This document shows, one piece after another, positions 1 through 11,736 of a stretch of 25,904 nt of DNA. The stretch lies in the IMG/VR virus record IMGVR_UViG_3300034198_011852, positions 1-25,904 of that record. One strand, written 5' to 3'. A program made the position numbers and the translations under genes. The DNA is from a virus. The notes under the pieces are model-generated. The model saw only the letters and a program-made list of their open reading frames with translations. It ran no database searches and was not told where the DNA came from. Positions within the stretch are counted from its first letter, which is position 1. Each line of letters starts with the position of its first letter.

Positions 1-6
1 CACTTA

Positions 7-24
7 GGTAAACAGTTGATGAAC
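7..24 (-). promoter_or_regulatory. Paired GTTCACC-type site (left edge)
   Basis: Two 7-bp motifs at 7-13 and 18-24, read on the minus strand as GTTCATC and GTTTACC, with starts 11 bp apart. This is the same spacing as every other pair between 474 and 2009. The pair lies just beyond the hairpin at 32-55, so it probably sits upstream of a leftward gene outside the window. Protein binding is inferred. Confidence 0.5.
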
Positions 25-31
25 TTTTGGT

Positions 32-55
32 GGGGGCTAGGTTGCCCTAGCCCCC
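32..55 (-). terminator. GC-rich hairpin after leftward gene
   Basis: A perfect 10-bp stem (GGGGGCTAGG / CCTAGCCCCC) around the 4-nt loop TTGC, 12 nt downstream of the stop codon at 68. The same stem with a different loop occurs at 1632-1655, also 12 nt downstream of a stop. On the leftward strand no U-tract follows, so it is either a U-less terminator, as proposed for actinobacteria, or a 3' end stabiliser. Confidence 0.6.
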
Positions 56-67
56 GTGGTTTTGGCT

Positions 68-364
68 TTACTCGCTGATTTTGCCGCCGCGGTAGTCCTC
101 GATTGAATCGTACATTTCGCCATCAACGTGCATTCCGCCGTTGTTGTGAACAATAAAGTCTTCACCGAGTAGTTCTTTAGCGATTGCAAGTTGGGCAATC
201 AGAGAGTCGATGCCATCAAGGGTTATTTCAACTTCGGCCGTTGGAAGTTGAATCATGTTTCCATCGACCCAAATGATGTTTCTTACTGCAATGCGGAAAT
301 CAGCCATCGAGTAGGCTAGGGTATCGTAAACGGTGATTTCGGTTCTCATGCTGTTTTCTGGCAA
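68..364 (-). CDS. Small acidic protein of unknown function, TTG start
   Basis: A 98-aa acidic leftward protein of no family I recognise, with no membrane segment or metal motif. The TTG start at 364 is chosen over the in-frame ATG at 349 because the upstream AGATAGGGGCTAACGCC aligns at identical spacing with AGATAGGGACTAACACC before the ATG of the gene starting at 1066. This indicates a shared initiation region. The in-frame ATG would give 93 aa. It is a single-gene unit: a conserved leader lies upstream (about 365-441) and a strong GC hairpin follows the stop. The middle holds a predicted helix (about residues 52-67) between beta-prone segments. Small leftward proteins in such early phage regions often modulate host functions, but nothing in the sequence shows that here. 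Confidence 0.75.
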   Translation of the reverse strand: MPENSMRTEITVYDTLAYSMADFRIAVRNIIWVDGNMIQLPTAEVEITLDGIDSLIAQLAIAKELLGEDFIVHNNGGMHVDGEMYDSIEDYRGGKISE

Positions 365-441
365 GGCGTTAGCCCCTATCTTGCTAGTGAAACTTGGACA
401 ACCCTTTTTGGGTATGGTATGAGTCTAGCCTATTTAGACTC
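365..441 (-). promoter_or_regulatory. Leftward promoter/leader, copy 1
   Basis: On the minus strand this holds TAGGCT (plus-strand 427-432) and then GATAGGGG just before the TTG start. Both blocks recur upstream of the genes starting at 1066 and 1907. TAGGCT may be a -10 box; no convincing -35 is seen. It lies inside a 7-bp inverted repeat, GAGTCTA / TAGACTC (421-427 and 435-441), which could be an operator or a leader hairpin. Confidence 0.45.
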
Positions 442-473
442 TCAAAACGCCAAAATAGCCCCTAGATCAAATC

Positions 474-551
474 GTTAACCTAATGTTCATCTCTTTACCT
501 AATGTTCACCAGATGTTCATCTTGGATCAAAATGTTAACCTAATGTTCACC
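474..551 (+). repeat. Cluster of seven phased GTTCACC motifs
   Basis: Motifs begin at 474, 485, 493, 504, 515, 534 and 545 (consensus GTT[CA]A[CT]C; 493 is degenerate as CTTTACC). The steps are 11, 8, 11, 11, 19 and 11 bp. The 11-bp step puts neighbours on one face of the helix. The 19-bp step holds TTGGATCAA and is reproduced at 1202-1221. The cluster lies upstream of the leftward leader at 365-441. The rest of the 365-685 gap holds this array, the inverted-repeat element at 556-628 and four more motifs. Confidence 0.7.
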
Positions 552-555
552 TTGC

Positions 556-628
556 CCGACTCAACAACTTAAAAAACAACAGCCAGCCTATAAAAGCGTA
601 TGCTGGCTGTTGTTTTTTGTTGAGTCGG
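556..628. terminator. Long inverted repeat, probable bidirectional terminator
   Basis: The outer arms CCGACTCAACAA (556-567) and TTGTTGAGTCGG (617-628) enclose a 15-bp inner stem (573-587 with 602-616, AAAACAACAGCCAGC) and a 14-nt loop; a 5-nt bulge (568-572) lies on the left side. Rightward the inner stem is followed by a T run at 613-618, and leftward by TTTTTTAAG, so it could end transcription both ways. The leftward gene ending at 686 is the nearest client. The outer arms recur at 1243-1349. Confidence 0.65.
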
Positions 629-633
629 CAAAA

Positions 634-671
634 ATTCACCCACTGTTCACCTAGATGAACAGCAGGTGAAT
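634..671. repeat. Palindromic pair of GTTCACC doublets
   Basis: Plus-strand motifs at 634-640 (ATTCACC) and 645-651 (GTTCACC) face minus-strand motifs at 654-660 and 665-671. Each doublet has the 11-bp step. Together they form an imperfect palindrome of about 36 bp centred near 652, the only place in the window where doublets converge. It lies between the inverted-repeat element at 556-628 and the stop of the leftward gene at 686. Confidence 0.65.
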
Positions 672-685
672 CTTGGGCTAGGCTC

Positions 686-1066
686 CTACTCTAGCGTTCC
701 GATGTAATGGGTCTTTAGGTTCCAGTGAACCTCCATCTTCTGAGGAATGCGGTAGCCATTGTCGTCTAAGATAGCGTCCCAATCGTAGTGAACCAAAAGG
801 TATTCGTCCTGTAGCACATTTACCGCGAAGGTGCTGTCGCCGTAGACACTTACGCGCTCAACTTTGAGAATGTCAGCACCGCTTGGTAGTTCCCCGAATG
901 CGTCAGAACCAGCAACAAAAAGCGCTTCAATCATGGCGCCCCTAGAATCGAACTCGGTTTCGTAAATGTCGTCTACGACATAAACTTCAACGCGCTTATA
1001 GGTGAACCGCTCGGTTGGTCGTCCTGCTAGTGCGTGGATGGTGTTGTTTTCGTTGATGATGTTCAT
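686..1066 (-). CDS. Leftward protein of unknown function (126 aa)
   Basis: I do not recognise this 126-aa acidic protein. It looks mixed alpha/beta, with no transmembrane segment, signal peptide or cysteine cluster. The ATG at 1066 is preceded by AGATAGGGACTAACACC, the same leader block used by the gene starting at 364 and, in shorter form, by the gene starting at 1907. It appears to be a one-gene unit: its leader lies at 1067-1125, and beyond its stop lie the convergent GTTCACC doublets and a bidirectional terminator-like inverted repeat. An open frame of 90 codons on the opposite strand overlaps its 5' end but runs into the repeat array and is not considered a gene. Confidence 0.8.
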   Translation of the reverse strand: MNIINENNTIHALAGRPTERFTYKRVEVYVVDDIYETEFDSRGAMIEALFVAGSDAFGELPSGADILKVERVSVYGDSTFAVNVLQDEYLLVHYDWDAILDDNGYRIPQKMEVHWNLKTHYIGTLE

Positions 1067-1125
1067 GGTGTTAGTCCCTATCTTAGATGGTGCCCGATGC
1101 CCTCTTCTGGGCTACGCCCAGCCTA
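1067..1125 (-). promoter_or_regulatory. Leftward promoter/leader, copy 2
   Basis: Minus-strand order: TAGGCT (plus 1120-1125), then a short perfect hairpin CTGGGC-GTA-GCCCAG (1108-1122), then GATAGGGA before the ATG. TAGGCT and GATAGGGA match copies 1 and 3; the GGGC/GCCC hairpin is shared with copy 3. The remainder of the 1067-1393 gap holds six phased motifs (1168-1238), the Y-shaped inverted repeat (1243-1349) and a GC hairpin (1370-1387). Confidence 0.45.
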
Positions 1126-1167
1126 TCAGATTTGGCGCGTTCTCTCTACTCTCATGCACTCTTTTTA

Positions 1168-1238
1168 GGTTAACGACAGATGAATTAAAGATTCACCAAC
1201 TGTTCATCTTGGATCAATCTGTTCACCAGCTGTTCACT
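1168..1238. repeat. Cluster of six phased GTTCACC motifs
   Basis: Minus-strand motifs at 1168 (GGTTAAC as read on plus) and 1179 (GATGAAT) are 11 bp apart. Plus-strand motifs follow at 1191, 1202, 1221 and 1232, with steps of 11, 19 and 11. The 19-bp step again carries TTGGATCAA, as at 515-534. The last motif lies exactly 11 bp before the inverted-repeat arm at 1243, matching the 545-to-556 distance in the other copy. Confidence 0.7.
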
Positions 1239-1242
1239 TTCG

Positions 1243-1349
1243 GCCAACTCAACAAAAGTTGTAAGCAATGGTAATACTATTGCTAACAACTTTAACGACT
1301 ACAAACTATGGTGAAGCATATAGTATGTAGATCGTTTTGTTGAGTCGGC
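1243..1349 (-). other. Y-shaped inverted-repeat element (three-stem structure)
   Basis: The outer stem pairs 1243-1257 with 1335-1349 (15 bp). Its single mismatch is A-C if transcribed rightward but becomes a G-U wobble leftward. Inside are two hairpins: 1258-1271 with 1277-1290 (5-nt loop) and 1299-1309 with 1320-1330. Each hairpin has five base pairs, one A-A mismatch, then six or more pairs. The outer arms match those at 556-628. It lies downstream of the leftward gene ending at 1394. It could be a structured 3' end, a non-coding RNA or a DNA cruciform site. It is not a tRNA: there is no anticodon arm of the right size and no T-loop. Confidence 0.6.
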
Positions 1350-1369
1350 GGGCTTGCACCCCGAAGGGC

Positions 1370-1387
1370 GGGGGGCTTGCGCCCCCC
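1370..1387 (-). terminator. GC hairpin after leftward membrane protein gene
   Basis: A 7-bp stem (GGGGGGC / GCCCCCC) around TTGC, 6 nt downstream of the stop at 1394. No U-tract follows on the leftward strand. It resembles the hairpins at 32-55 and 1632-1655 in composition and position. Confidence 0.55.
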
Positions 1388-1393
1388 ACTTGA

Positions 1394-1609
1394 TTACTTG
1401 CTGTCTAACCAGCGGTTGATGTTTGTCATGAATGTTACACCAGTGATAACCGTGGCCCCGATTGCTGGCAGATTGCTGATTGCGATTTCTAGGTTGCCAC
1501 TAGGTGATGGCGTGAGCATTGATAGAACAAAATAAACGGCTAGGTAGATTGCAAACACGAATGGCATAACTAGCAGTGATAAAAAGAAACGGCGGATAAT
1601 GTATTTCAT
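1394..1609 (-). CDS. Small two-helix membrane protein
   Basis: A 71-aa protein with a short basic N-terminus (MKYIIRR), a strong hydrophobic segment at about residues 9-32 and a second, weaker one at about 44-62, so probably a double-spanning inner-membrane protein. The family is not recognised. The ATG at 1609 has a good Shine-Dalgarno AAGGAG at 1614-1619, 4 nt away, unlike the other leftward genes, which use the GATAGGG leader. It is the second gene of a unit headed by the gene starting at 1907; a 10-bp GC hairpin lies between them (1632-1655) and may lower its expression. Size and topology would fit a holin, antiholin or superinfection-exclusion protein, but nothing shows which. Confidence 0.75.
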   Translation of the reverse strand: MKYIIRRFFLSLLVMPFVFAIYLAVYFVLSMLTPSPSGNLEIAISNLPAIGATVITGVTFMTNINRWLDSK

Positions 1610-1631
1610 GATGCTCCTTAGGTTGAGTGGT

Positions 1632-1655
1632 GGGGGCTAGGATTCCCTAGCCCCC
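1632..1655 (-). terminator. GC-rich hairpin, second copy
   Basis: The same 10-bp stem as at 32-55 (GGGGGCTAGG / CCTAGCCCCC) with loop ATTC, 12 nt after the stop at 1668. It stands before the ribosome site of the gene starting at 1609, so some read-through would be needed if the two genes share a transcript. No U-tract is present. Confidence 0.6.
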
Positions 1656-1667
1656 GATGTTTGGTTG

Positions 1668-1907
1668 CTACTCGGATTCTGGCAAAAGCCGTGTTAGTTC
1701 AGCGATTAGTCTCAAGATGTCTGAGCACTTACCACCGTGGTGCTCACAGTATCCCACAGCAGATGGATAAAGGAAACGGCGGTCGGCTAGTTCTTCGTGC
1801 ATCTTTGAAGCGTCAAAACAAACTATTTTCTTTAGTTCTTCAATGCTGTACTCGATGCCTTTTTGAAAAGCATTTAGCATCATCACGGTTTCTGGGTGAA
1901 GCGACAT
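1668..1907 (-). CDS. Small helical protein with Cys/His cluster
   Basis: A 79-aa protein, predicted mostly helical. Residues about 53-61 read YCEHHGGKC, and a further Cys lies near residue 30, so metal binding is possible but unproven. The family is not recognised. The ATG at 1907 follows the leader block GATAGGGA with 6 nt spacing, related to the leaders of the genes starting at 364 and 1066. It is the first leftward gene next to the divergent spacer at 1908-2334 and probably heads a two-gene unit with the membrane protein gene at 1394-1609. A rightward open frame over the same bases has no ribosome site and is taken as a shadow. Confidence 0.7.
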   Translation of the reverse strand: MSLHPETVMMLNAFQKGIEYSIEELKKIVCFDASKMHEELADRRFLYPSAVGYCEHHGGKCSDILRLIAELTRLLPESE

Positions 1908-1960
1908 AATGAATCCCTATCTATTTCTGAACCGCCCTATCTGGGCATAGCCCTAGCCTA
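1908..1960 (-). promoter_or_regulatory. Leftward promoter/leader, copy 3
   Basis: Minus strand: TAGGCT (plus 1955-1960), a GGGC-TAT-GCCC hairpin, then GATAGGGA and the ATG at 1907. Two blocks match copies 1 and 2. Here a GTTCACC-type motif (1970-1976) lies only 10 bp upstream of TAGGCT, closer than in copies 1 and 2 (about 42 bp). Confidence 0.45.
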
Positions 1961-1969
1961 ATCGACGAA

Positions 1970-2009
1970 GGTTAACAGGGGGGTACCCTTAAGTGAACAG
2001 CAGGTGAAC
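1970..2009 (-). repeat. Phased GTTCACC motifs in divergent spacer
   Basis: Motifs on the minus strand at 1970-1976 (GTTAACC), 1992-1998 (GTTCACT) and 2003-2009 (GTTCACC). The steps are 22 and 11 bp, that is two turns and one turn. This is the rightmost cluster; no phased pair was seen in the structural genes. The rest of the 1908-2334 gap holds a G-rich repeat (2071-2097), nested inverted repeats (2139-2243) and a rightward promoter (2295-2328). Confidence 0.65.
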
Positions 2010-2070
2010 AATCGCACCAGTGCACAGATACGACTGAAGGGTAAAAAAAGTTAGGCAGTAGCCTTTTGGA

Positions 2071-2097
2071 GGGGGTAGCGGGGGTGGCGGGGGTAGC
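2071..2097 (+). repeat. Three tandem 9-bp G-rich repeats
   Basis: GGGGGTAGC, GGGGGTGGC and GGGGGTAGC follow each other without a gap, preceded by GGA. Three G5 runs plus neighbouring GG could form a G-quadruplex on the plus strand. The function is unknown. It lies in the divergent spacer, where control or origin sequences are expected. Confidence 0.6.
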
Positions 2098-2138
2098 TGT
2101 TTCTGAGAGTTTCCTGGGAATTGCCTGGGAAGCTGATC

Positions 2139-2243
2139 GCGGCGCAGCGGTATGCAATTCTAACTATTTATTTGATTTCTTTGTTTTAATAGAATAATAC
2201 GAATTGATTGGAAGAGTGGAAGTAGCTGTGTCTGCTGCGCCGC
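2139..2243. repeat. AT-rich core within nested inverted repeats
   Basis: The 10-bp arms GCGGCGCAGC (2139-2148) and GCTGCGCCGC (2234-2243) flank a strongly AT-rich stretch (2149-2210), which itself carries CAATTC (2155-2160) and GAATTG (2201-2206) and an inner TTCTA / TAGAA. An AT-rich unwinding core between GC arms resembles a replication origin or a recombination site, but no initiator or integrase gene is in the window to support either. Confidence 0.45.
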
Positions 2244-2294
2244 CCTTAGAGAGCCAATACGCAAGTTTTTAGGTAACGATTATGTAACGAACAG

Positions 2295-2328
2295 TTATCA
2301 AGACTTTTTCCTGGTTTTAACCCATAAT
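2295..2328 (+). promoter_or_regulatory. Rightward promoter, leaderless
   Basis: TTATCAAGACTTTTT begins at 2295 and CATAAT lies at 2323-2328. The same 15-mer recurs at 16931 with an aligned CATTAT exactly 28 bp later. Read as a promoter, -35 is AAGACT (2300-2305), the spacer is 17 bp and -10 is CATAAT. The ATG at 2335 is 6 nt after the -10, so transcription would start at or next to the start codon. Confidence 0.6.
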
Positions 2329-2334
2329 AGAGAA

Positions 2335-2637
2335 ATGGAACCTAAAAACCCGCAGATTAAACACAGCTACCAAGAAGACAAGCTAAGAGCTAGAATGGCC
2401 GATAGAGCCCTGGATGAGAGTGCCCGCGCTAACTACACTAATGGTATATTCAAGCCAGGTCTTATGGCGAAGAGTAACGAAAATGATCGTGAGTTAGGAA
2501 CTAGAAATATTCACAAGACTCCTGTAGCAGAACTAAAAGAACTGCACAATAAGTTCGGAATTGAAACCGAAGTCAGCGGCGACGCTCTTGCTAGGAAAAA
2601 AGCAGGCAAGCCAGGCAAGTATCACGAGAAGGCATAA
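2335..2637 (+). CDS. Small basic protein with VSGDAL C-terminal module
   Basis: A 100-aa, Lys/Asn/Arg-rich, probably largely disordered protein of unknown function. It shares two blocks with the 88-aa protein at 3368-3634: NDRELGTRN (about residues 49-57; NKSEMGTRE there) and the C-terminal VSGDALARKKAGKPGKY (about 80-96; VSGDALKRATSGQPAKF there). The two are diverged paralogues or carry the same tail module. There is no ribosome site before the ATG; the -10 box 6 nt upstream suggests leaderless translation. It is the first gene of the rightward cluster and is followed immediately (TAA then ATG) by the next gene. Confidence 0.75.
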   Translation: MEPKNPQIKHSYQEDKLRARMADRALDESARANYTNGIFKPGLMAKSNENDRELGTRNIHKTPVAELKELHNKFGIETEVSGDALARKKAGKPGKYHEKA

Positions 2638-3126
2638 ATGAGTAGGAACGACGCATTTGAAGAAGGGCAAGCTCAGCGAGCTGCTGACCCTACTAGTAGC
2701 TCCCCGCTTAATGACCCTCACTACCACCCAAAAAAAGCATCAGATGAGAAGTTCACAACTCACCTAATGATGGGCGACCACCCAAGCGGAGCCACCTCAG
2801 TCACTATGGAGGATATGTTCCCAAAAAGTGGTATGCAAACTATTCGTATGTATAAGGGTAAGCAGAATATTGGCATCCTTGATGTCTCAGGAAATAAAAT
2901 CCACCACATCGAAACTCAAGAAGATTCCAAACGTAAAGGAGTAGCAAAGACAATGTATCGTCTCGCTAACTTTGCAGCTGGCCGAGGTGGAGCCGAGGGT
3001 CCTGTATCTCACGGAGATATCCGCACCCCTTCTGGCGACTCCTGGGCTAAATCCGTAGGTGGAGAGTTACCTACAAGAATCCCTGCATTCGGTATCAACA
3101 GAAGTCTGTTAGAGCACCGTAAATAA
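2638..3126 (+). CDS. GNAT-like acetyltransferase-fold protein
   Basis: A 162-aa protein. Residues about 68-150 look like the core of a GNAT N-acetyltransferase: a strand pair (IGILDVSG, then KIHHIETQ), a K-R-K-G-V-A turn (98-103) in the position of the acetyl-CoA pyrophosphate loop, a helix (TMYRLANFAA), and a C-terminal GDSWAKSVGGELP segment. The loop is shorter than the classic Q/R-x-x-G-x-G/A motif, so activity is uncertain. The N-terminus MSRNDAFEEGQA matches the tag on the proteins at 3978-4166 and 4166-4351, and MEDMFPKSGM (57-66) matches LESMFDKAGV in the former. The start directly follows the previous stop and has a GAGAAGG ribosome site. The substrate is unknown. Confidence 0.65.
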   Translation: MSRNDAFEEGQAQRAADPTSSSPLNDPHYHPKKASDEKFTTHLMMGDHPSGATSVTMEDMFPKSGMQTIRMYKGKQNIGILDVSGNKIHHIETQEDSKRKGVAKTMYRLANFAAGRGGAEGPVSHGDIRTPSGDSWAKSVGGELPTRIPAFGINRSLLEHRK

Positions 3127-3368
3127 TGGCTGGCAGACTCCACGCTAGCAACAGCCTAACTAGCGAGTTCCACCAAGGCCGCGCACCAGAGCTACACGAC
3201 GTACTGGGTGTATTCACCAATAATAATGCCGTTTTAGGGCTTGATGTAATGGGTGCCCGAAGAATAAACGATCGTATGTTTACTGGGCCAAGGGGAGCTG
3301 TTGGAAGGTACAATGTATCTGTTAATGCGACCAACGTCGCTCAGACCCCTTACGGAAGTAGTCAATAA
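3126..3368 (+). CDS. Small protein of unknown function (80 aa)
   Basis: An 80-aa protein with no recognised domain. It is rich in Asn, Gly and Arg and has a moderately hydrophobic centre around residues 26-42, too short and polar to be a membrane segment. It starts within the stop of the upstream gene (TAATG overlap) and ends in another TAATG overlap, so translational coupling with both neighbours is likely. An overlapping leftward open frame has no ribosome site and is ignored. It may be a minor virion or regulatory protein, but there is no direct evidence. Confidence 0.65.
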   Translation: MAGRLHASNSLTSEFHQGRAPELHDVLGVFTNNNAVLGLDVMGARRINDRMFTGPRGAVGRYNVSVNATNVAQTPYGSSQ

Positions 3369-3634
3369 TGATTCCAAACGACCGCCAAATTTTTAAAAAG
3401 GCACAAGGCCACTTAACCCAGCAAGCCCTTGGGCCAGGTAAGACAGGCCGTACTTTTGAAACTCGTCTCGCTGCTGAGCGTGGGATTGAAAACAATAAGT
3501 CTGAGATGGGCACCCGCGAAGCCGCTAAGGGTAACAGAAAAGTCAAGGACGCCAAAGGACCAGTTAGCGGAGATGCTCTTAAGCGCGCTACTTCTGGACA
3601 GCCTGCTAAGTTTGACTACGGCCAGGAGAAATAA
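3368..3634 (+). CDS. Small basic protein with VSGDAL C-terminal module
   Basis: An 88-aa, Lys/Arg/Gly-rich, probably disordered protein. It carries the two blocks shared with the protein at 2335-2637: NKSEMGTRE (about 44-52) and VSGDALKRATSGQPAKF (about 67-83). The regions between the blocks are unrelated, so the blocks may be short interaction or cleavage signals rather than a folded domain. The start overlaps the previous stop (TAATG) and has GGAAG upstream. A 73-codon frame inside it in another register is a shadow. The function is unknown. Confidence 0.75.
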   Translation: MIPNDRQIFKKAQGHLTQQALGPGKTGRTFETRLAAERGIENNKSEMGTREAAKGNRKVKDAKGPVSGDALKRATSGQPAKFDYGQEK

Positions 3635-3636
3635 TT

Positions 3637-3978
3637 ATGACTGCTGCTAAGAAGCCAGCCCCTAAGAAAAAAGCCTCTACTCTCGCAGGTAGTGGCAAAG
3701 ACGGCAAGAAGGTTTACGGCCCATTCAAGGGCTCTAAGCAAAACGGCGGTCGTCCAATGATGTCTATTTTGAATAAAGATGGTTCACGTACTTCTATTTC
3801 CGCAGCTCGCTATAAGTATGAGCAAGCTCACGGAAAATTGCCAAAGGGCACAGAAGTGGACCACAAGAACAATAACCACTCTGATGACAAGACCAGCAAC
3901 CTACGCGCGCTTTCAAAGAGCAAGAATGTCGCTAAGGAAAACAAGCGTCGCGCAGGCAAAAAGGAAAACGACAAATAA
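3637..3978 (+). CDS. HNH endonuclease
   Basis: A 113-aa protein. Residues about 57-104 match the compact HNH nuclease fold found in many phage HNH proteins: a helix with YKYEQAHGKLPKG, then EVDHKNNNHSDD with the catalytic Asp-His (D75, H76) and Asn residues (78-80), then TSNLRALSKSKN with the structural Asn88 and the final helix with Asn97. The N-terminus (KKPAPKKKAS) is very basic and could bind DNA. There are no zinc-binding cysteines. The start has GGAG upstream; the stop overlaps the next start. Phage HNH enzymes act as homing nucleases or as packaging-associated nickases. Its place inside an operon of small genes, and 6 kb from terL, favours a free-standing or homing type, but this is not settled. 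Confidence 0.88.
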   Translation: MTAAKKPAPKKKASTLAGSGKDGKKVYGPFKGSKQNGGRPMMSILNKDGSRTSISAARYKYEQAHGKLPKGTEVDHKNNNHSDDKTSNLRALSKSKNVAKENKRRAGKKENDK

Positions 3979-4166
3979 TGTCTCGTAAAGAAGAGTTCGA
4001 ATCTGGCAAGTCTGGCGAAAAGTATACTAAGTTAGAAAGTATGTTTGACAAGGCCGGAGTTAGTATGGTTAAAGACCCATTTACTGGAACTACTCACGTA
4101 GACTTGTCTGACCCTAATCACCCTTTTTGGACGGGTAAGCCCGGAGACCACGAAAGCAAGAAGTAA
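3978..4166 (+). CDS. Small protein with MSRxEEFExGKS tag
   Basis: A 62-aa hydrophilic protein of unknown function. Its N-terminus MSRKEEFESGKS is nearly identical to that of the following gene (MSRREEFETGKS) and related to that of the GNAT-like protein (MSRNDAFEEGQA). It also has LESMFDKAGV (about 19-28), matching MEDMFPKSGM in the GNAT-like protein. The C-terminus DPNHPFWTGKPGDHESKK is probably unstructured. Start and stop both overlap neighbours as TAATG, and AAAGGA lies upstream. The repeated N-terminus suggests a common localisation or packaging signal; this is inference. Confidence 0.75.
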   Translation: MSRKEEFESGKSGEKYTKLESMFDKAGVSMVKDPFTGTTHVDLSDPNHPFWTGKPGDHESKK

Positions 4167-4351
4167 TGTCACGCAGAGAAGAGTTTGAGACTGGAAAGTC
4201 TAACCGTCCCGGTGAGGTTATCGGAGCCCCTAAATGGTGGCACCACCCGACCACTCCTGAGATGATTGATGAGATGAAGTGGGAGCAGGGCAAGTCCATT
4301 GAGGCGCCTAAAGACCACACCACTAATAAAGACGACACTCCTCCTTTTTAA
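4166..4351 (+). CDS. Small protein with MSRxEEFExGKS tag, last of cluster
   Basis: A 61-aa protein with the N-terminal tag MSRREEFETGKS. A weaker echo, WEQGKSIEAP, occurs near residues 39-48. The centre (APKWWHHPTTPEM) is rich in aromatic and His residues and the C-terminus is polar. The function is unknown. It starts in a TAATG overlap and is the last gene before a 105-bp gap without a clear terminator; that gap has a purine-rich ribosome site for the next gene and one 8-codon frame at 4404 that I do not call. Confidence 0.72.
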   Translation: MSRREEFETGKSNRPGEVIGAPKWWHHPTTPEMIDEMKWEQGKSIEAPKDHTTNKDDTPPF

Positions 4352-4456
4352 CTAAAAGTTTGAGTTTACGCCTAATTATTTCTGATTTAGCTAGATACTT
4401 AATTATGGCGTCCCGATCACGCGCTTTCTAAAAATAACTCTAGAGAAAGGCCTTAA

Positions 4457-7387
4457 ATGGCTCTGAATACACTAGGAGACATCGCTGATAGCGGTACGCT
4501 TCTTATAGACACAACTGCGACTGTGAACGGCGCTACTAATGCTAGCACCAGCGTCACTATCTCAGCTACAAACACAAACTTATTCGTCGGTCAGGTAGTA
4601 ACTGGTCCTGGCGTACAGCAAGCTAACGGTATCGTAAGCCAAACCACAATTACCGCTATTAGCGTTTCTGGCTTGGTTCTTACCCTTAGCAACCCAGCTA
4701 CTTTTGTAAATGGCGCTGTTCTTACCTTCTCGTCTCCTTATGCTCAGGTTACAACTGCTGTCCTTAACGGTACAACCACCGCTAGCACTGCTGTAACACT
4801 TTCTGCCGCTAACGCCAATATCGTTGCTGGTCAGCTTGTTTCTGGTGCAGGTATCACAGCTGGCACTTTCGTTTCGTCGATCAGCTCGACTTCGCTAGTT
4901 CTAACTGCTCCGTTCACCATCACTTCTGGAACTACCCTTACATTCTGGACTCTTGCAAGCTCTAACGTATCAGTTGACCTAGCTTGGGGTAACTTCCCAA
5001 TGCAGCCAAATGATGACCGCGTTGCTGCTGGTGTAGCTAACATTGGTGGTGCTGGTGTTCAGTCAGCTTACGTCACTGGAGCTTCTAAACCATCTACTGG
5101 TACTATCTTGTTCACCACGAACGCTGTTCACGGTCTACAGGTTGGCGATGTTGTAAGCACTGGTTCATACGCAACTGCTGGTACACCATTTGGTAGCGCA
5201 CTTACTACCGTGTCTAACACAGCCGGTACAACTACCTTCATCTACACCAACAGTCCAACCGTTGTACCACAGGTCGGTATGGTTTTGGTTAAGACTGCTG
5301 GTACAGGCGCATTTGCCCCTAACGGTAACACTATCCTCACAGTTGACACCACAAACAAGACCTTCACAGTAGCCGTTGCTCCAACCACTGACTTCAGCGG
5401 TGCAACTGTTCAGTCTGCTGGTCAGCCTGTTTATTCGACAACTGCAACTATTAGCGGCGGTACTTTAGACGCAACTCTACTAACTAACAGCTGTACTACT
5501 GGTACTCACTTCATTGCACCTGGAAGCCCTGTTATCCTATCGAGCACAACCCCAGCAGGTTATGGCACTTCACCTAATGGCGCTTATACATCACTAGGCT
5601 CTGCAAGCAAGACTAACATCAAGCTATCTAGCCAGAGCGTGTCGTTCACCACGAACAACATTGGTTCAAAGGACGTAACAGTCTCGTCGCTTGCTGCTCT
5701 AACAGCTGGAACTGTTACTTACTACCCTTACGATGTTTCGGAAGTTAAGGTCATTGCTGTTCCTTCGACAACTACATTTGTTGTCGCAAGCAGCATTGGT
5801 TGGAGCGGTGACTCAACTGATACTGGTGTTGCAGCTCAGTCGAGCCTTGTAGGTTCGTTGGCTTTGGTTGCTGACCGCAACTGGTCTGACACCACTAAGT
5901 CGTCAAGCTCACGTCTAAACCAGGGCTCAGTAGTCAGCACTGTTAACGGTGTTAACTACGTTACCCCTACTGCTGACGGTATTGCAACTGCCTCGTACTA
6001 CACATACCCTAACCTAATCCCAGGAAAGTTCACTGTTACTGGTGCTACCGTCTGTGCTGACGCTGCAGGTACGCCAAACCTATACGTTTGGTACACCGCT
6101 TATAACAACCTTGCTGCAGGTAGCTCAGTTACTGTAACTGGTCTGTCTAACCCAGCGTTCAACGTTGTAGGTGCATCGGTCATCGCTGCTAGCACAACTG
6201 GCTTCTTGATCGCTAACCCTAGCACTACAGGTACAGTTTCTGGCGCAACTAGCGCTAGCTCTACTGTTACTTTGGCAGCTGCTAACGGCGCTATCAAAGT
6301 TGGTATGAACGTTACTGGAACTAACATCTCTGGAGTAGTAACTGTTGTTGCTGTAGTCAACACTGTTGTAACCCTAAGCTCGGCACAGTCATTGTCAAAC
6401 TCTGACACCCTGACATTCCGTATCGTCAATGGAACCACTATTGCAGGTAATGGAGTTGCAGCGCAGGCTAACTTTGGTGTAGGTAACGCTATTGTTACTG
6501 CAGTTTCGGGTAACGGTACAACTGTTACTTACACATCGCAGAACACCTTCGTTACTGGTGACTCGGTAAACATCACTGGACTAACCAATGGTGTTTTCAA
6601 CCTATCGGCTGCGACTGTTGCTAGCGCTAATGCTACAACTTTCACAGTAACTAGTGCCGTAGGTTCGGGTGTCTCGCTAACTGGCCAGGTTGGTAAGGCT
6701 GAGTATGCAGCTGCTTTGACTAACGTCGATGGCGGATTTGTAGCAGGCGTTTACTACCCACAGGTTCCAGTTATCATCGGACAGACGGTTGCAGCTGCTA
6801 CGGACTCAATCCGTGACCGCGGTTTCACAGGCTCGTTCACTGCTGCTACTCCTGCAATTACTTCGACAATCACTTTGTCAAAGGCACAGCGTACAGCTGG
6901 TACTAACGTTGCAATTTTGACAGGCACACAGGCAATCACTGACATCGTAGCTTCAGGCTCAGCTAACGCTGTGACTCGTGCTTCGGGTACTGCGATTGCT
7001 GCTGTGAAGGTTGGTCAGACAGTTGCTTCGACAACCATCACACCTGCTCGTAACATTACTGCTGTTAACTACTCGACAGGTGTTATCACCTTCGACGGTG
7101 CTGCAGTTGGTACAGTAACCTCTGAAACCCTAACAATTGGTGGTCACGGTCTACAAACTGGTGACGTAATCGTTATCTCCAGCACAGACGCTACCGTGAA
7201 CGGAGATGCGACAGTTATCAGAATTGACGCGTTGAACTTCGCAATCGTTACCCCTGTGACAACTGTCTTGGCTGCTACAAGCGGTTCTGTAGTTGGAAAG
7301 TCTGGAACGGTTCACTACCAGTCAGTTGCTGCTGGAACACAGAGCACAGCTGCTAACGCTGCACTAACATACACACTCTGGGCCTAA
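4457..7387 (+). CDS. Large beta-repeat virion protein (976 aa)
   Basis: A very Ser/Thr/Ala/Val/Gly-rich protein with almost no Lys/Arg clusters and no Cys-rich motif, built of beta-sandwich-like repeats. Type 1 repeats, with a GAT-AS-T-VT-L-A-N...VG--V-G-GI...T-V...LTLS...LTF pattern, lie at about 20-93, 99-164 and 592-656. Type 2 segments (GHGLQTGDVIVISS near 895; similar ones near 225, 555 and 695) resemble the G-H-x-L/F-x-x-G-D/Q units of phage fibre and surface proteins, including the 943-aa fibre at 20033. Near 177-187 there is a distinct WGNFPMQPNDD segment. It has a GAGAAAGG ribosome site and its own downstream terminator (7402-7431). Frequent TCG serine codons, shared with the capsid gene, suggest high expression. 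A decoration, head-fibre or tail-surface protein is likely; which one is unknown. Confidence 0.8.
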   Translation: MALNTLGDIADSGTLLIDTTATVNGATNASTSVTISATNTNLFVGQVVTGPGVQQANGIVSQTTITAISVSGLVLTLSNPATFVNGAVLTFSSPYAQVTTAVLNGTTTASTAVTLSAANANIVAGQLVSGAGITAGTFVSSISSTSLVLTAPFTITSGTTLTFWTLASSNVSVDLAWGNFPMQPNDDRVAAGVANIGGAGVQSAYVTGASKPSTGTILFTTNAVHGLQVGDVVSTGSYATAGTPFGSALTTVSNTAGTTTFIYTNSPTVVPQVGMVLVKTAGTGAFAPNGNTILTVDTTNKTFTVAVAPTTDFSGATVQSAGQPVYSTTATISGGTLDATLLTNSCTTGTHFIAPGSPVILSSTTPAGYGTSPNGAYTSLGSASKTNIKLSSQSVSFTTNNIGSKDVTVSSLAALTAGTVTYYPYDVSEVKVIAVPSTTTFVVASSIGWSGDSTDTGVAAQSSLVGSLALVADRNWSDTTKSSSSRLNQGSVVSTVNGVNYVTPTADGIATASYYTYPNLIPGKFTVTGATVCADAAGTPNLYVWYTAYNNLAAGSSVTVTGLSNPAFNVVGASVIAASTTGFLIANPSTTGTVSGATSASSTVTLAAANGAIKVGMNVTGTNISGVVTVVAVVNTVVTLSSAQSLSNSDTLTFRIVNGTTIAGNGVAAQANFGVGNAIVTAVSGNGTTVTYTSQNTFVTGDSVNITGLTNGVFNLSAATVASANATTFTVTSAVGSGVSLTGQVGKAEYAAALTNVDGGFVAGVYYPQVPVIIGQTVAAATDSIRDRGFTGSFTAATPAITSTITLSKAQRTAGTNVAILTGTQAITDIVASGSANAVTRASGTAIAAVKVGQTVASTTITPARNITAVNYSTGVITFDGAAVGTVTSETLTIGGHGLQTGDVIVISSTDATVNGDATVIRIDALNFAIVTPVTTVLAATSGSVVGKSGTVHYQSVAAGTQSTAANAALTYTLWA

Positions 7388-7401
7388 TACCCTGAATAAA
7401 G

Positions 7402-7431
7402 AAACCCCGGCTAATTGGCCGGGGTTTTTTT
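7402..7431 (+). terminator. Rho-independent terminator
   Basis: The stem AAACCCCGGC (7402-7411) / GCCGGGGTTT (7418-7427) with loop TAATTG is followed by a T run. It lies 14 nt after the stop of the 976-aa gene and separates it from the next unit, which has its own -10 box. Confidence 0.95.
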
Positions 7432-7461
7432 ATTTAATAAGTTAATTCTCATTAAAAGAAA

Positions 7462-7467
7462 TACAAT
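7462..7467 (+). promoter_or_regulatory. -10 box for leaderless start at 7474
   Basis: TACAAT at 7462-7467 ends 6 nt before the ATG at 7474, and no ribosome site is present. The upstream terminator makes a new promoter necessary here. The -35 region is not convincing. Confidence 0.5.
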
Positions 7468-7473
7468 TTACAT

Positions 7474-8127
7474 ATGGCTATTAATAACATAGAGGGCGCT
7501 CACGCAAGAAACGCAGCAAGCGACGATAAAGTCAGCGGTGCTTGGGCTAAGCAATTTAGCGCCAATATGTTTTTAGGCAAAAAACTTGCTGGAGATAGCG
7601 GAAGCAGCAGCGAAAGCAACAGAGGAGGCGGCAGTATTTTTGGACGTAATAAGAGCCAAACTGGATACACTGACGAAGACCACGCTCGTTATGAAAAGTC
7701 GCAGGAAAGTGCTCACACACGCCAGCTAGCTTTAGAAAAGTCTCGCGTTGAAAACACAACTGCGGGCGTAGGCAGCCTGTTAGGCTCCGAAAAAGGTTCT
7801 GTGGCTGAGGTAGGTTTTCACCACGGTACAGGTAGCCACAGCATTAAGTTTAATAGAAGCGCTGCTACAAATGCTGGAAAACAGCAAGACAACGTATCTC
7901 CAGCTGCTAGACGGCGCAATTCGTCTGCTACTAGAACAGGCGCTGACAGAACCCCTGTAAAGTTTGTTGCAGCTGGTTCTACCCCTAAAAAGGCCCCTGC
8001 TGCGGGAGCCATAACCCGCCAGAGTAAAGCAGCTGGTTCTTACTCTACTGGGTCTGCTACGGGTAATTCTGCTGCCCAAAATCGCCAAAATAAAGCTGCC
8101 CAATCTTACGCTGCTCCTACTGAGTAA
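7474..8127 (+). CDS. Low-complexity basic Ser/Ala/Gly-rich protein
   Basis: A 217-aa protein, probably disordered. It has a Ser/Gly-rich stretch at about 42-58, a charged helical stretch at about 69-92 (ARYEKSQESAHTRQLALEKS), and a C-terminal Ala/Ser/Arg/Lys half with repeated KAAGSYS / KAAQSYA motifs (about 188-213). The family is not recognised. It has no membrane segment or catalytic motif. It starts a new unit after the terminator; a -10 box 6 nt upstream and the lack of a ribosome site suggest leaderless translation. The stop overlaps the next start (TAATG). Low-complexity basic proteins in this position can be internal virion proteins, but that is a guess. Confidence 0.75.
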   Translation: MAINNIEGAHARNAASDDKVSGAWAKQFSANMFLGKKLAGDSGSSSESNRGGGSIFGRNKSQTGYTDEDHARYEKSQESAHTRQLALEKSRVENTTAGVGSLLGSEKGSVAEVGFHHGTGSHSIKFNRSAATNAGKQQDNVSPAARRRNSSATRTGADRTPVKFVAAGSTPKKAPAAGAITRQSKAAGSYSTGSATGNSAAQNRQNKAAQSYAAPTE

Positions 8128-8330
8128 TGCCTAGCCTCAAAATAGATATACGCCGTAATGGCCCTCTAGCAAAGCGCTCAGGGGCCATTACCTCTACCGA
8201 CGTGTACGAACGCACTAATTACCCCGTAGCCCGCTCTAGCGAGTTTACAGACGCCCTTACGAGGGCTGTAGGTCCTACTGTCCCTGGAATACCCACTCAT
8301 ATGAAAGAGTGGGGAAGATGGCAGGGATAA
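8127..8330 (+). CDS. Small protein of unknown function (67 aa)
   Basis: A 67-aa basic protein beginning MPSLKIDIRRNGP and ending GIPTHMKEWGRWQG. No family is recognised. It starts in the stop of the upstream gene (TAATG), so it is probably translationally coupled. Its last 13 bases overlap the start of a further short gene at 8318. There are no membrane segments or cysteines. Proteins of this size and Pro/Arg/Trp style often accompany phage head genes, but there is no specific evidence. Confidence 0.65.
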   Translation: MPSLKIDIRRNGPLAKRSGAITSTDVYERTNYPVARSSEFTDALTRAVGPTVPGIPTHMKEWGRWQG

Positions 8331-8482
8331 AAAGAGAATCTGAGTTTAAAAAAGCATTATTTAAACCAGTACAGATAAATGATACACGATTTGGAATTCG
8401 TAGAATTTATCTGAATCAAAAGGAAAAGCCACAAACTTTTTCTTACTCCGAGCCTGGCACCAATTGGTGGGGCACCCGATAA
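8318..8482 (+). CDS. Very small basic protein (54 aa)
   Basis: An intact 55-codon frame from ATG at 8318 to TAA at 8482. It overlaps the end of the previous gene by 13 bases and fills the otherwise empty stretch before 8492. The product begins MAGIKRESEFKKAL and ends with SYSEPGTNWWGTR; it is basic, with a polar C-terminus rich in aromatics. Purine-rich GAAAGAG lies 8 nt upstream and GGGGA closer. Its frame joins both neighbours without a gap, and no other frame is open over this stretch, which supports it as a real gene. The function is unknown. Confidence 0.65.
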   Translation: MAGIKRESEFKKALFKPVQINDTRFGIRRIYLNQKEKPQTFSYSEPGTNWWGTR

Positions 8483-8491
8483 TAGGACCAA

Positions 8492-8761
8492 ATGGATACT
8501 ACACAATTAACCGCCCTCATTTCTACTTTGTGCACAGTAATCGTTCTTGTTGGAACTATCTCCGCTAAATTAATAGGCGGGCATACTACAAAAATAGTTA
8601 ACGAGATTGTTAAAAATTATTTGTCAGAGCTTAAGCCAAACCACGGCTCTTCTCTAAGGGACGACATTGTCCACATTAGGAAAGACTTAGTGAATTTAAA
8701 AGTTGACTTGGCTAGCCTAGAAGGCAAGTTTGACCAGCACATTATAGAGACTGGTAAATAA
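8492..8761 (+). CDS. Holin-like membrane protein (DUF2746-like)
   Basis: An 89-aa protein. Residues about 8-29 form one transmembrane helix with a short exposed N-terminus. A helical region follows, then NHGSSLRDDIVHIRKDL (about 50-66) and a coiled-coil C-terminus (about 54-85). This one-TM plus coiled-coil layout with an N-x-G-S-S-L-R-D motif is familiar from small actinophage membrane proteins (DUF2746-like) often listed as holin-like. No endolysin gene is adjacent, so a lysis role is not shown; a membrane anchor for an injection or assembly complex is also possible. AGGA lies upstream of the ATG. Confidence 0.7.
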   Translation: MDTTQLTALISTLCTVIVLVGTISAKLIGGHTTKIVNEIVKNYLSELKPNHGSSLRDDIVHIRKDLVNLKVDLASLEGKFDQHIIETGK

Positions 8762-8767
8762 GTCTGT

Positions 8768-8773
8768 TATTAT
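8768..8773 (+). promoter_or_regulatory. -10 box for leaderless start at 8780
   Basis: TATTAT at 8768-8773 ends 6 nt before the ATG at 8780, the same geometry as at 2323 and 7462. No Shine-Dalgarno sequence precedes this ATG. Confidence 0.45.
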
Positions 8774-8779
8774 AGTTTA

Positions 8780-9049
8780 ATGCGGATAACTACTCATCAA
8801 ACTTATCAAGGACATCCCGTGCCAAAGCACGTGTATTACCCTGACGATGAAACTCCGTTTGACTACGATGTAACTGCTGAGCCTGAGATTAACTATGACT
8901 ACGCAAGTGAGATGCCGGAAGACGGCTCTGACTTCGCGGAGGGCGCTACAGCCCAAAATGGTTTTAAACCACAAAAGCTATTCCGTTGCAAAAAATGTTC
9001 TATTAAACTAATTGAGAGCGAACTAAAGCCTCATACCTGTGGAGACTAA
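8780..9049 (+). CDS. Acidic protein with C-terminal zinc ribbon
   Basis: An 89-aa protein. The first 65 residues are acidic and Tyr/Asp/Glu-rich, probably disordered. The C-terminus, FRCKKCSIKLIESELKPHTCG (in part), places a C-x2-C pair at about 69-72 and an H-x-C pair at about 85-87, giving a plausible single zinc-binding ribbon or finger. The family is not identified. Possible roles are an adaptor that binds nucleic acid or protein. The start lacks a ribosome site but has a -10 box 6 nt upstream; the stop overlaps the next start (TAATG). Confidence 0.75.
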   Translation: MRITTHQTYQGHPVPKHVYYPDDETPFDYDVTAEPEINYDYASEMPEDGSDFAEGATAQNGFKPQKLFRCKKCSIKLIESELKPHTCGD

Positions 9050-9549
9050 TGGCTAAAAGACCTGGGGTGCCTGATTGGGAAAGTATAAATCAGGGATCAA
9101 AAAACCCTACTAAAAAATGGGGCAACACTTATTTAAACAGCCCTACTACTGCGTCAGACTGGCTTAATACTTTATTACAAGAAGTTGATCCTGAGGAAGA
9201 CACTAGTTTTGAGACTGTAGACGAAGGTGGCCCTTCTATCTCAGTGACTACTTCCTCAAACCCTTCTAGGCCAAGAACTATTCGAGCTGGCTATGACTTT
9301 AAAGAAAATACATTAGTAGTTGTATTTAGAGACGGTACTTGGTGGGAGTACAAAGGCGTACCAGAAGATATGTGGTATAGCTTTGTATCGGCCCAATCCA
9401 AAGGCAAGTTCCTTAGAGATTCTGGACTAGACACATGGCCTGATATGGGACCAGCTGATATTAGCGCTATGCCTAGACACCGTGTAGTTCAGATGGCACA
9501 CACTAAAAATTTCGCAAACTATATGTATCCGAGCAAAAAGGAAAATTAA
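9049..9549 (+). CDS. KTSC-domain protein
   Basis: A 166-aa protein. Residues about 73-125 match the KTSC domain: IRAGYDFKENTLVVVF (strand pair), DGTWWEYKGVP, then a helix MWYSFVSAQSKGKFL ending in the characteristic S-x-G-x-F. KTSC domains occur in phage and bacterial proteins, often next to nucleases or lysyl-tRNA-synthetase-like proteins; the biochemical role is unclear. Residues 1-70 are polar and probably flexible, with an acidic patch at about 47-60. The C-terminus (RHRVVQMAHTKNFANYMY) is unlike the standard domain. It overlaps the upstream gene by TAATG and is followed directly by a TTG-start gene. Confidence 0.85.
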   Translation: MAKRPGVPDWESINQGSKNPTKKWGNTYLNSPTTASDWLNTLLQEVDPEEDTSFETVDEGGPSISVTTSSNPSRPRTIRAGYDFKENTLVVVFRDGTWWEYKGVPEDMWYSFVSAQSKGKFLRDSGLDTWPDMGPADISAMPRHRVVQMAHTKNFANYMYPSKKEN

Positions 9550-9804
9550 TTGATATCAACTGGATCACTATACGCAGACACTATTAAACTAAAACACCCA
9601 GTACTCCCTTTATTTGAATGGGGCTGGAGCCAAGAGACTGAGCACCCGTATAGAGAAAGCTCTGTATGCGTAGTGTTCTGGGTGCCGTTTGTTCCACGTG
9701 GGTATGCCGTGGGCCTTTGGGGAAACCCTGTAGACGAAGATGAAGCCCTAGGTAAAATATTTACGTCTAAAAAAGCTGAGGCTAAGGAGATTCGTAAATG
9801 GTAA
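9550..9804 (+). CDS. Small protein of unknown function, TTG start
   Basis: An 84-aa protein. TTG at 9550 directly follows the TAA of the KTSC gene, and AAAGGA at 9537-9542 is 7 nt away, so TTG is a well-placed start; no internal ATG is available. The N-terminal half is rich in Trp, Pro and aromatics (LPLFEWGWSQE; VVFWVPFVPRGYAVGLWG), suggesting a compact beta fold, and the C-terminus is a charged helix (KKAEAKEIRKW). The family is not recognised. It overlaps the next gene by 7 bases. Rightward small genes just before terL can encode accessory packaging factors, but there is no sequence support for that. Confidence 0.68.
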   Translation: MISTGSLYADTIKLKHPVLPLFEWGWSQETEHPYRESSVCVVFWVPFVPRGYAVGLWGNPVDEDEALGKIFTSKKAEAKEIRKW

Positions 9805-10161: not shown

Positions 10162-11736
10162 ATGAGCGATATTGATGACTTTGAAGAGCTAGATGAAAGC
10201 CTTGAAAGTGAGGTTGACGAGTACCCTGAAGACGACGATGGTTTAGACGAACTATCGCGTGAGTTTGTAAATCAGCTAATTGATAAAATTATGCTGTTCA
10301 TGACTGCTCTTGTGGGGCACGAACTGCGCGCCTACCAAAAACCCTTGGCTCGTCGTATTATCGAGTCTGTGGTAATCAACGAGGGTGAGGAAATCACAGC
10401 TTTGGCCTCGCGTCAGTCAGGTAAATCCGAGACTGTGGCGGACACTGTGGCCGCTCTAATGGTAATTTTACCGCGGCTTGCCAAAATGTATCCCGACCTG
10501 CTAGGAAGGTTCAAGGACGGCCTCTGGGTGGGTCTATTCGCCCCTGTAGAAGGCCAGGCTGAAACGTTGTTCTCTCGCGTTATAACTCGTCTTACCAGTG
10601 AGCACGCGTTGGCACTCCTTGAAGACCCAGAGATTGACGACGAGGCTAAAAAAGTAGCTGGCGTCACTAAGCAAGTAAAGCTTCTTAAGTCTAATTCCTC
10701 AGTAATGATGATGACCGCTAACCCTAGAGCCAAGATTGAGTCTAAAACCTTCCACCTTATTGTGATTGATGAGTGCCAGGAAGCCGACGACTTCATCGTG
10801 GCTAAGTCTATTGGCCCTATGCTCGCCTCTACCAACGGTACTATGGTAAAAACTGGTACGCCTACCACGCATAAGAACAACTTCTACAGGGCAATCCAAC
10901 TCAACAAACGCCGAGCTACTGGGCGTGGCGGCAAGCAGAACCACTTCCAGTGGGACTGGCGTGACGTTGCTAAGGCTAGCGATGACTACGGTAAGTTCGT
11001 GCGCAAGGAAATGTTGCGTATTGGTGAAGACTCTGATGAGTTCCAAATGGCCTATAACTGTAAGTGGCTACTTGAGCGCGGTATGTTTATATCTTCAACC
11101 ATTATGGATGAGCTAGGCGATACCTCTCAGGAAACAGTTAAAGCCTGGCACCGTACTCCAGTAATTGTGGGTATTGACCCTGCCCGTAAGATGGACTCTA
11201 CTGTAGTCACTGTAGTTTGGGTGGATTGGGATAGGCCTGATGAGTTTGGCTACTATGACCATCGCATTCTTAACTGGCTTGAGATTCAGAATGATGACTG
11301 GGAAGACCAGTATTTTCAGATTGTAAACTTCCTCGAGAACTACAACATCCTATATGTGGGTGTTGATGCTAATGGTGTCGGAGATGCTGTAGCCCAGCGT
11401 TTAAGGTTACTGTTGCCAAGAGCTGAGGTAATCTCAGTTAAAAGTAGCCAGCAAGAGCAGTCTAAGAGATGGAAGCACCTAAAGACTTTAATTGAACGCC
11501 GCTTAATTGGCTGGCCCGCACACGCTAGCACTAGAAGACTACGTGCGTGGAAACGTTTCTATCAGCAGATGACTGACCTTGAGGTTAAGTTCCAAGGCCC
11601 TAACTTCTTAGCGCACGCTCCAGTGGAAGCTCATGCTCACGATGACTTTGCCGATAGTTTGGCTATTGCTATTAGTTTGACCTTAGACCTAACGATGCCT
11701 TCTGTAGAAGTTAGTAGTTCTCCATTTTATCGTTAA
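10162..11736 (+). CDS. terL: Terminase large subunit
   Basis: The 524-aa DNA-packaging motor with ATPase and nuclease domains. Visible motifs: adenine/Q-type region LRAYQKPL (55-62), Walker A SRQSGKSE (83-90), Walker B LIVIDECQ (199-206) with catalytic Glu204, and coupling motif TGTPT (231-235). The RNase H-like nuclease has acidic residues in VGIDPARKMDST (D339), YVGVDANG (D402) and HAHDDFADS (D494, D495, D498). The acidic first 30 residues are an extension. The length is normal for the family. It would dock on the portal encoded at 12678 and cut concatemers. Ribosome site AAGGTG. A terminator lies just upstream and an AT-rich hairpin (11737-11774) just downstream. Confidence 0.97.
   Translation: MSDIDDFEELDESLESEVDEYPEDDDGLDELSREFVNQLIDKIMLFMTALVGHELRAYQKPLARRIIESVVINEGEEITALASRQSGKSETVADTVAALMVILPRLAKMYPDLLGRFKDGLWVGLFAPVEGQAETLFSRVITRLTSEHALALLEDPEIDDEAKKVAGVTKQVKLLKSNSSVMMMTANPRAKIESKTFHLIVIDECQEADDFIVAKSIGPMLASTNGTMVKTGTPTTHKNNFYRAIQLNKRRATGRGGKQNHFQWDWRDVAKASDDYGKFVRKEMLRIGEDSDEFQMAYNCKWLLERGMFISSTIMDELGDTSQETVKAWHRTPVIVGIDPARKMDSTVVTVVWVDWDRPDEFGYYDHRILNWLEIQNDDWEDQYFQIVNFLENYNILYVGVDANGVGDAVAQRLRLLLPRAEVISVKSSQQEQSKRWKHLKTLIERRLIGWPAHASTRRLRAWKRFYQQMTDLEVKFQGPNFLAHAPVEAHAHDDFADSLAIAISLTLDLTMPSVEVSSSPFYR

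Follow-up and report, generated by a model that had tools for sequence, protein, structure and literature searches.

Genes and repeats of the locus

The window analysed here, meaning the whole stretch of DNA, is a 25.9-kb virus record (IMG/VR IMGVR_UViG_3300034198_011852, positions 1-25,904), and the subject of this study is an array of short repeats in its leftward gene block that closely resemble the PHO boxes of actinobacteria. Packaging and virion proteins are among the products of the rightward genes from 2335 onwards; examples are the large terminase (10162-11736, rightward) and the major head protein (15352-16440, rightward). Small leftward genes lie left of 2335, and no confident family matches were found for them. 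Those on the minus strand are 68..364 (no family match), downstream of the 474-671 repeat cluster; 686..1066 (no confident family match), downstream of the 1168-1238 cluster; 1394..1609 (no family match); and 1668..1907 (no family match), downstream of the 1970-2009 box. Gene 1394-1609 may share the promoter of 1668-1907, because only a 58-bp gap without PHO units separates the two. Two long palindromes adjoin the clusters: hairpin 1 (555..628), imperfect, with outer arms CCGACTCAACAA / TTGTTGAGTCGG and a fold z-score of -9.3, and hairpin 2 (1244..1349), branched, with outer arms CCAACTCAACAAAA / TTTTGTTGAGTCGG and a fold z-score of -9.7.

About 20 repeat units are found within 2 kb of the window. 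The leftmost pair, GTTCATC-AACT-GTTTACC (7..24, minus strand), lies upstream of a leftward gene past the left end of the window. The next cluster comprises GTTAACC-TAAT-GTTCATC (474..491, plus), three in-phase units CTTTACC-TAAT-GTTCACC-AGAT-GTTCATC of which the first is degenerate (493..521, plus), GTTAACC-TAAT-GTTCACC adjoining hairpin 1 (534..551, plus), ATTCACC-CACT-GTTCACC on the opposite side of that hairpin (634..651, plus) and ATTCACC-TGCT-GTTCATC (654..671, minus), which converges with 634-651. Further right are ATTCATC-TGTC-GTTAACC (1168..1185, minus), forward for leftward gene 686-1066, ATTCACC-AACT-GTTCATC (1191..1208, plus) and GTTCACC-AGCT-GTTCACT (1221..1238, plus), the last adjoining hairpin 2. 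Upstream of gene 1668-1907, and forward for it, is the pair GTTCACC-TGCT-GTTCACT (1992..2009, minus), together with a single in-phase unit GTTAACC (1970..1976, minus) located 22 bp from the 1992 unit.

A preliminary description of this DNA had listed 22 words of the form GTTMAYC, and all of them were present at their coordinates: 14 match exactly, seven deviate by one base (GTTTACC at 7; ATTCAYC at 634, 665, 1179 and 1191; GTTCACT at 1232 and 1992) and one deviates by two (CTTTACC at 493). It had further regarded the motif as confined to the gaps between leftward genes. For the single 7-mer this did not hold, as 29 exact copies occur across the whole window, 14 of them beyond 2335. For pairs of words at an 11-bp step it did: ten occur in 1-2334, every one within gaps between leftward open reading frames, and none in 2335-25904 (23.6 kb), which agrees with the reported lack of such pairs in the structural genes. 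The expectation from 100 first-order Markov simulations was 0.12 pairs per window, with a maximum of 1. The pair at an 11-bp step, not the single 7-mer, is the meaningful unit. The spacing spectrum was highest at 11 bp (10), and its lesser peaks at 30 (6), 41 (4) and 19 bp (3) arise from phasing between pairs. The 19-bp step said to be common to two clusters was recovered at 515/534 and 1202/1221, with TTGGATCAA inside both. Direct-repeat sites one helical turn apart, distributed over several leftward transcription units, fit the earlier suggestion of a protein bound cooperatively in direct repeat and would be expected if protein dimers bind head to tail.

Similarity to actinobacterial PHO boxes

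The PHO box of Streptomyces coelicolor consists of two 11-nt direct-repeat units with the 7-nt core GTTCACC (PMC4415409), and the form GtTCAccnnnn has been given for PolR of Microlunatus and for PhoP (PMC6754071). The window conforms to this definition, with ten pairs of 11-nt direct repeats around the same core against 0.12 expected. In a search of 84,980 genomes with the phage 18-mer GTTCACCTRMTGTTCACC, for which no genes were chosen in advance, Actinomycetota made up most of the 80 matches listed. Pfam analysis of the adjoining genes (48 proteins) identified PstS (6), PhoU_div (4), PhoU (2), sensor kinase (2) and PhoD (1), and SBP_bac_1 was also among the families. One family of small actinobacterial genomes contained 18 exact pairs compared with 3 for the reversed control pattern. 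The box-adjacent genes of this family, pooled with those of the G016 family, were mostly pst permease (13), PstS (7), PhoU (2) and histidine kinase (2) genes. The pair precedes pstS/pstC in the small genomes, oriented as in the phages and at a similar distance.

A set of 25 pstS loci was also picked by protein family, independently of the motif. Of the 25, 15 have a sense-strand pair at step 11; other steps gave 0-3, the reverse strand gave 1 and shuffled sequences gave 0.22. The GTTCACC pair is accordingly placed at pst/pho genes in actinobacterial genomes, and the identification of the window sites as putative actinobacterial PHO boxes is strongly supported by these sequence comparisons. Like the boxes of Streptomyces and other Actinobacteria, they have the GTTCACC core, the 11-nt unit, at least two units per operator and a position upstream of genes; they differ in that they are carried by a virus, precede leftward genes without phosphate functions and include several inverted clusters beside long hairpins.

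In two low-GC actinobacterial genomes, L283 (3538-3555) and L341, a PHO box precedes an aquaporin-family gene, which in L283 is followed by an ArsC-like gene. This suggests that arsenate handling is under phosphate-starvation control in these bacteria.

Relatives, host and promoter structure

Scanning IMG/VR with the terminase yielded 80 relatives, some of which also have the 11-bp pairs (L005/G001, L015, L017, L022/G009 and L023). The pairs are restricted to the leftward block in both G001 (765-5261 of 18,484 bases), where they are spread across several promoter gaps, each upstream of a leftward gene, and G009 (803-9802 of 42,786 bases), which has 32 units in 10 kb. A further relative, L435, which was retrieved with the DUF932 protein encoded leftward in G009, contains 12 pairs in 7.3 kb. 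The density comparison over the whole window, relatives and simulations that the preliminary description had proposed left the signal standing; conservation in relatives is patchy because the slot is occupied by another box in sister phages.

Among isolates, the nearest are the Streptomyces phages BRock, LuckySocke, Alone3, pSt2308 and GiJojo (Borockvirus group), with terminases 53-54% and head proteins 68-70% identical; the annotation of BRock includes a tail sheath, and none of the five has 11-bp pairs. WhiB genes were found in 10 of 18 relatives. Because of these WhiB genes and the Streptomyces phages as nearest isolates, the host is most likely an actinobacterium. Transfer RNA genes are few, and absent from the PHO-bearing records, and they played no part in the host assignment. 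Megablast of window positions 1-8000 against isolated phages gave no match, and no prophage or host contig emerged when genome contigs were scanned with the terminase. An exact scan of viral contigs with GTTCACCNNNTGTTCACC was too unspecific for use.

Most leftward genes of G009 are preceded in order by a box, about 31 bp, a -10 hexamer, a ribosome-binding site and the start, with one box per leftward transcription unit. Among the PHO-bearing phages, a distance of 30-34 bp between the last GTTYACC and a -10-like hexamer downstream was seen for 19 of 40 boxes, compared with about 3 in comparable windows. The hexamers follow the pattern TANNNT, and the pair often stands about 31 bp before them, as in some host pst promoters; in one host pstS promoter, that of L351, the box, AAGTGTCRGTTT and the offset of the -10 are all the same as in the phages. 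The window contains three candidate -10 hexamers, all TAGGCT on the minus strand, which may belong to the leftward promoters of genes 68-364 (427..432), 686-1066 (1120..1125) and 1668-1907 (1955..1960). They lie about 40, 42 and 31 bp, respectively, downstream of the nearest forward or palindromic unit, and the single unit at 1970-1976 is 9 bp before the last of them. A probable promoter function is well supported by the position of the boxes in the relatives, and less uniformly in the window.

Predicted regulation by host PhoP and alternative explanations

No PhoB/OmpR-type DNA-binding domain (PF00486) was detected in 12 phage records, the PHO-bearing ones among which are incomplete, and the domain was present in most control bacterial genomes. 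Because no phage record searched encodes such a domain, the regulator is most likely host PhoP. We consider it likely that the sites are PHO boxes for host PhoP at the promoters of the phage leftward genes, which would be switched on under phosphate starvation. In a phosphate-starved host, the pairs of GTTCACC-N4 units would be occupied by phosphorylated PhoP in a head-to-tail arrangement, with one helical turn between the units, and PhoP would help RNA polymerase to start transcription at the -10 hexamer, about 31 bp past the pair; the presumably early leftward genes would then be turned on in the way that pst genes are. Reverse-oriented clusters beside hairpins might, as a guess, provide extra PhoP loading sites. 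We infer that host PhoP binds the boxes, that it activates rather than represses, given the box position, that the leftward genes are early and that the host is actinobacterial; phosphate regulation of the leftward genes is a prediction of the same kind.

Control of phage promoters by host PhoBR is already known from cyanophages. Promoters of cyanophage S-PM2d are bound by host PhoB, and several of its genes are induced in phosphate-starved hosts (PMC10976474). The marine cyanophages (pstS of P-SSM2; the DNA polymerase gene and others of S-PM2d) share with the present phages a host PHO box on phage promoters that is read by the host regulator. They differ in having a cyanobacterial box and host, in that only auxiliary and selected genes are concerned and in that control has been shown experimentally, whereas here it is predicted from sequence. 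Exchange for other boxes is not described in the cyanophage literature examined, and an actinophage version, its density and box exchange were not found in the open-access literature searched. If the prediction is true, host phosphate starvation gates or boosts infection of abundant freshwater actinobacteria, control covers most of the leftward (probably early) genes beyond auxiliary genes, the cyanophage phenomenon extends to another phylum, and lake phosphorus status is linked to phage success.

Several points weigh against regulation by host PhoP. The standard 31-bp spacing is found at only one of the three window promoters (1992-2009 to 1955-1960), and many units in the window are oriented away from the leftward genes, several clusters of this kind lying beside long hairpins. 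Some close relatives lack boxes altogether, which means that the boxes are not essential to this kind of phage. A phage-encoded binder could lie outside the incomplete records G000, G001 and G009, and the predicted cyanophage PHO boxes did not all bind PhoB (PMC10976474).

Among the alternatives, a phage-encoded regulator might bind the sites in the manner of L5 stoperators and switch the leftward genes, the resemblance to PHO boxes being convergence. The scatter of sites over many transcription units, the differing specificity between close relatives, the incompleteness of the records and a weak helix-turn-helix match in G009 are consistent with this. Stoperators of mycobacteriophage L5 are likewise many short asymmetric sites in gaps, scattered over the phage genome; they bind the phage repressor singly, in temperate phages, and the sites described here are 11-bp-phased pairs that match the box of a host regulator and stand at promoter distance. 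No candidate repressor was found among the leftward genes examined, in genomes that are incomplete. Since the word and its 11-bp phase equal the published actinobacterial PHO box, also precede host pst/pho genes and keep a preferred distance from -10 hexamers downstream in the phages, the stoperator-like interpretation offered earlier was not supported. A phage regulator is unlikely in general, given that sequence, phase, orientation and distance all match host pst promoters, that a search of all genomes with the phage 18-mer brings back the actinobacterial Pho regulon and that the 12 phage records lack a PhoB/OmpR-type domain.

It is improbable that another host regulator of the PhoP family with 11-bp-step sites, GlnR or MtrA, binds instead. 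Both use 11-bp-step repeats, the GlnR box being GTnAC-n6-GTnAC (PMC10704036) and the MtrA box KTRACC-N5-GTKACN (PMC5650626), and the variants GTTAACC and GTTTACC are common in these phages. The core GTTCACC is nevertheless that of PhoP, and the genes beside the motif in genomes belong to the pst/pho group, not to nitrogen or envelope functions.

Slightly less credible still are decoys, that is, boxes titrating host PhoP and blunting the host phosphate response without promoting phage transcription. The large number of boxes per genome and the reverse orientation of some beside hairpins would suit such a role, but the boxes keep preferred distances from -10-like hexamers and start codons, and G009 has one box per leftward transcription unit; promoters need these features, and decoys do not.

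Iterons of a phage replication or partition origin, raised in the preliminary description, are the least probable explanation: dense direct repeats beside long palindromes in A+T-containing gaps do resemble plasmid and phage origins, and the distant relative L452 has the DnaA-box-like TTATCCACA beside such pairs, but an origin would be one cluster, and the pairs are found in about nine separate promoter gaps of G009 and in several of G001, in each case ahead of a leftward gene, and keep a preferred distance from -10-like hexamers.

Apparent exchange of boxes among sister phages

The sister phages G002, G005 and G006, whose terminases are about 92-93% identical, are without GTTCACC pairs. Equivalent gaps in the sister phages are filled by TATAACRNNTTGATAACG at an 11-bp step, with the same kind of hairpin adjoining and the same kind of -10 downstream. 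Loci with TATAACRNNTTGATAACG pairs in the equivalent gaps are L088, L092, L097 and L018, all of which lack GTTCACC pairs. The exchange is directly visible at the promoter of the orthologous DUF932 gene, which reads ...AACAAGTTT-GTTTACCTAATGTTCATC in L435 and ...AACAAGTTT-ATTACGATTTGATAACG in L436. A de novo count of repeated 5-mers in the loci of this family showed a clear excess of the 11-bp step over other steps for ATAAC, TAACG, GTTCA, GTGGA and CTGAG. Four changes of box type are required on the terminase tree, at least three of them forced by supported branches, and the types cluster no more than shuffled labels do. The data are compatible both with exchange of individual promoters and with recombination of the leftward block as a unit.

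We tentatively suggest that this freshwater actinophage family may have a standard leftward-promoter slot with exchangeable host-regulator boxes, although we hold this at somewhat below even chances. The slot would directly follow a long hairpin, with the -10 about 30 bp farther downstream, and would receive PhoP-type GTTCACC pairs, a TATAAC..GATAAC pair, DnaA-box-like sequences, or CTGAG- or TGGGAAC-type pairs. Phages with near-identical structural genes would in this way tie early expression to different host nutrient or stress signals. If this is true, box exchange amounts to phages changing which host signal they follow, in a manner predictable from sequence.

The sister box (TATAAC..GATAAC, GTAAC-N6-GTAAC) resembles the 11-bp-step boxes of GlnR and MtrA, whereas the main core in the window is GTTCACC. 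Its sequence partly fits the GlnR box (GTnAC-n6-GTnAC or t/gTAAC-n6-Gc/aAAC). Genes near it in some small actinobacterial genomes often encode sugar-type solute-binding proteins, and matches to its pattern in one small-genome family were not above control.

Other repeats were noted at related loci. Upstream of the orthologous DUF932 gene, L433 has TGGGAAC-N4-TGGGAAC at an 11-bp step (upstream of 689) and L448 has three copies of CTGAG-N6 at the same step (upstream of 1716). In the 80-kb relative L452, TTATCCACA comes immediately after PHO-like pairs in eight gaps (minus strand; around 10262, 8471, 7221, 5924, 5144 and 3592). The divergent gap of the window itself contains two 11-bp-step elements that had been overlooked, TCCCAG/TCCCAG/TCTCAG (TYYCAG x3; 2103..2130, minus) and the pair GTAAC-GATTAT-GTAAC (2273..2288, plus), the latter resembling the sister-phage box. 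MprA, considered as a possible binder of the TYYCAG repeats, was not adopted, as the published Corynebacterium motif differs.

Hairpins of the family

Hairpin 1 occurs as the same element in relatives, and Rfam gave no match for the hairpins. The hairpin ends (ACTCAAC/GTTGAGT) were also considered as attC-like, an interpretation that was dropped because several relatives have the arms in inverse order. The outer arms CCAACYCAACAA / TTGTTGRGTTGG, in this or the inverse order, are common to the window, L084, L085, L088, L092 and L097. The stems vary in sequence yet stay paired across the family, and in phages with and without PHO boxes alike such a hairpin separates each leftward promoter from the terminator of the gene upstream.

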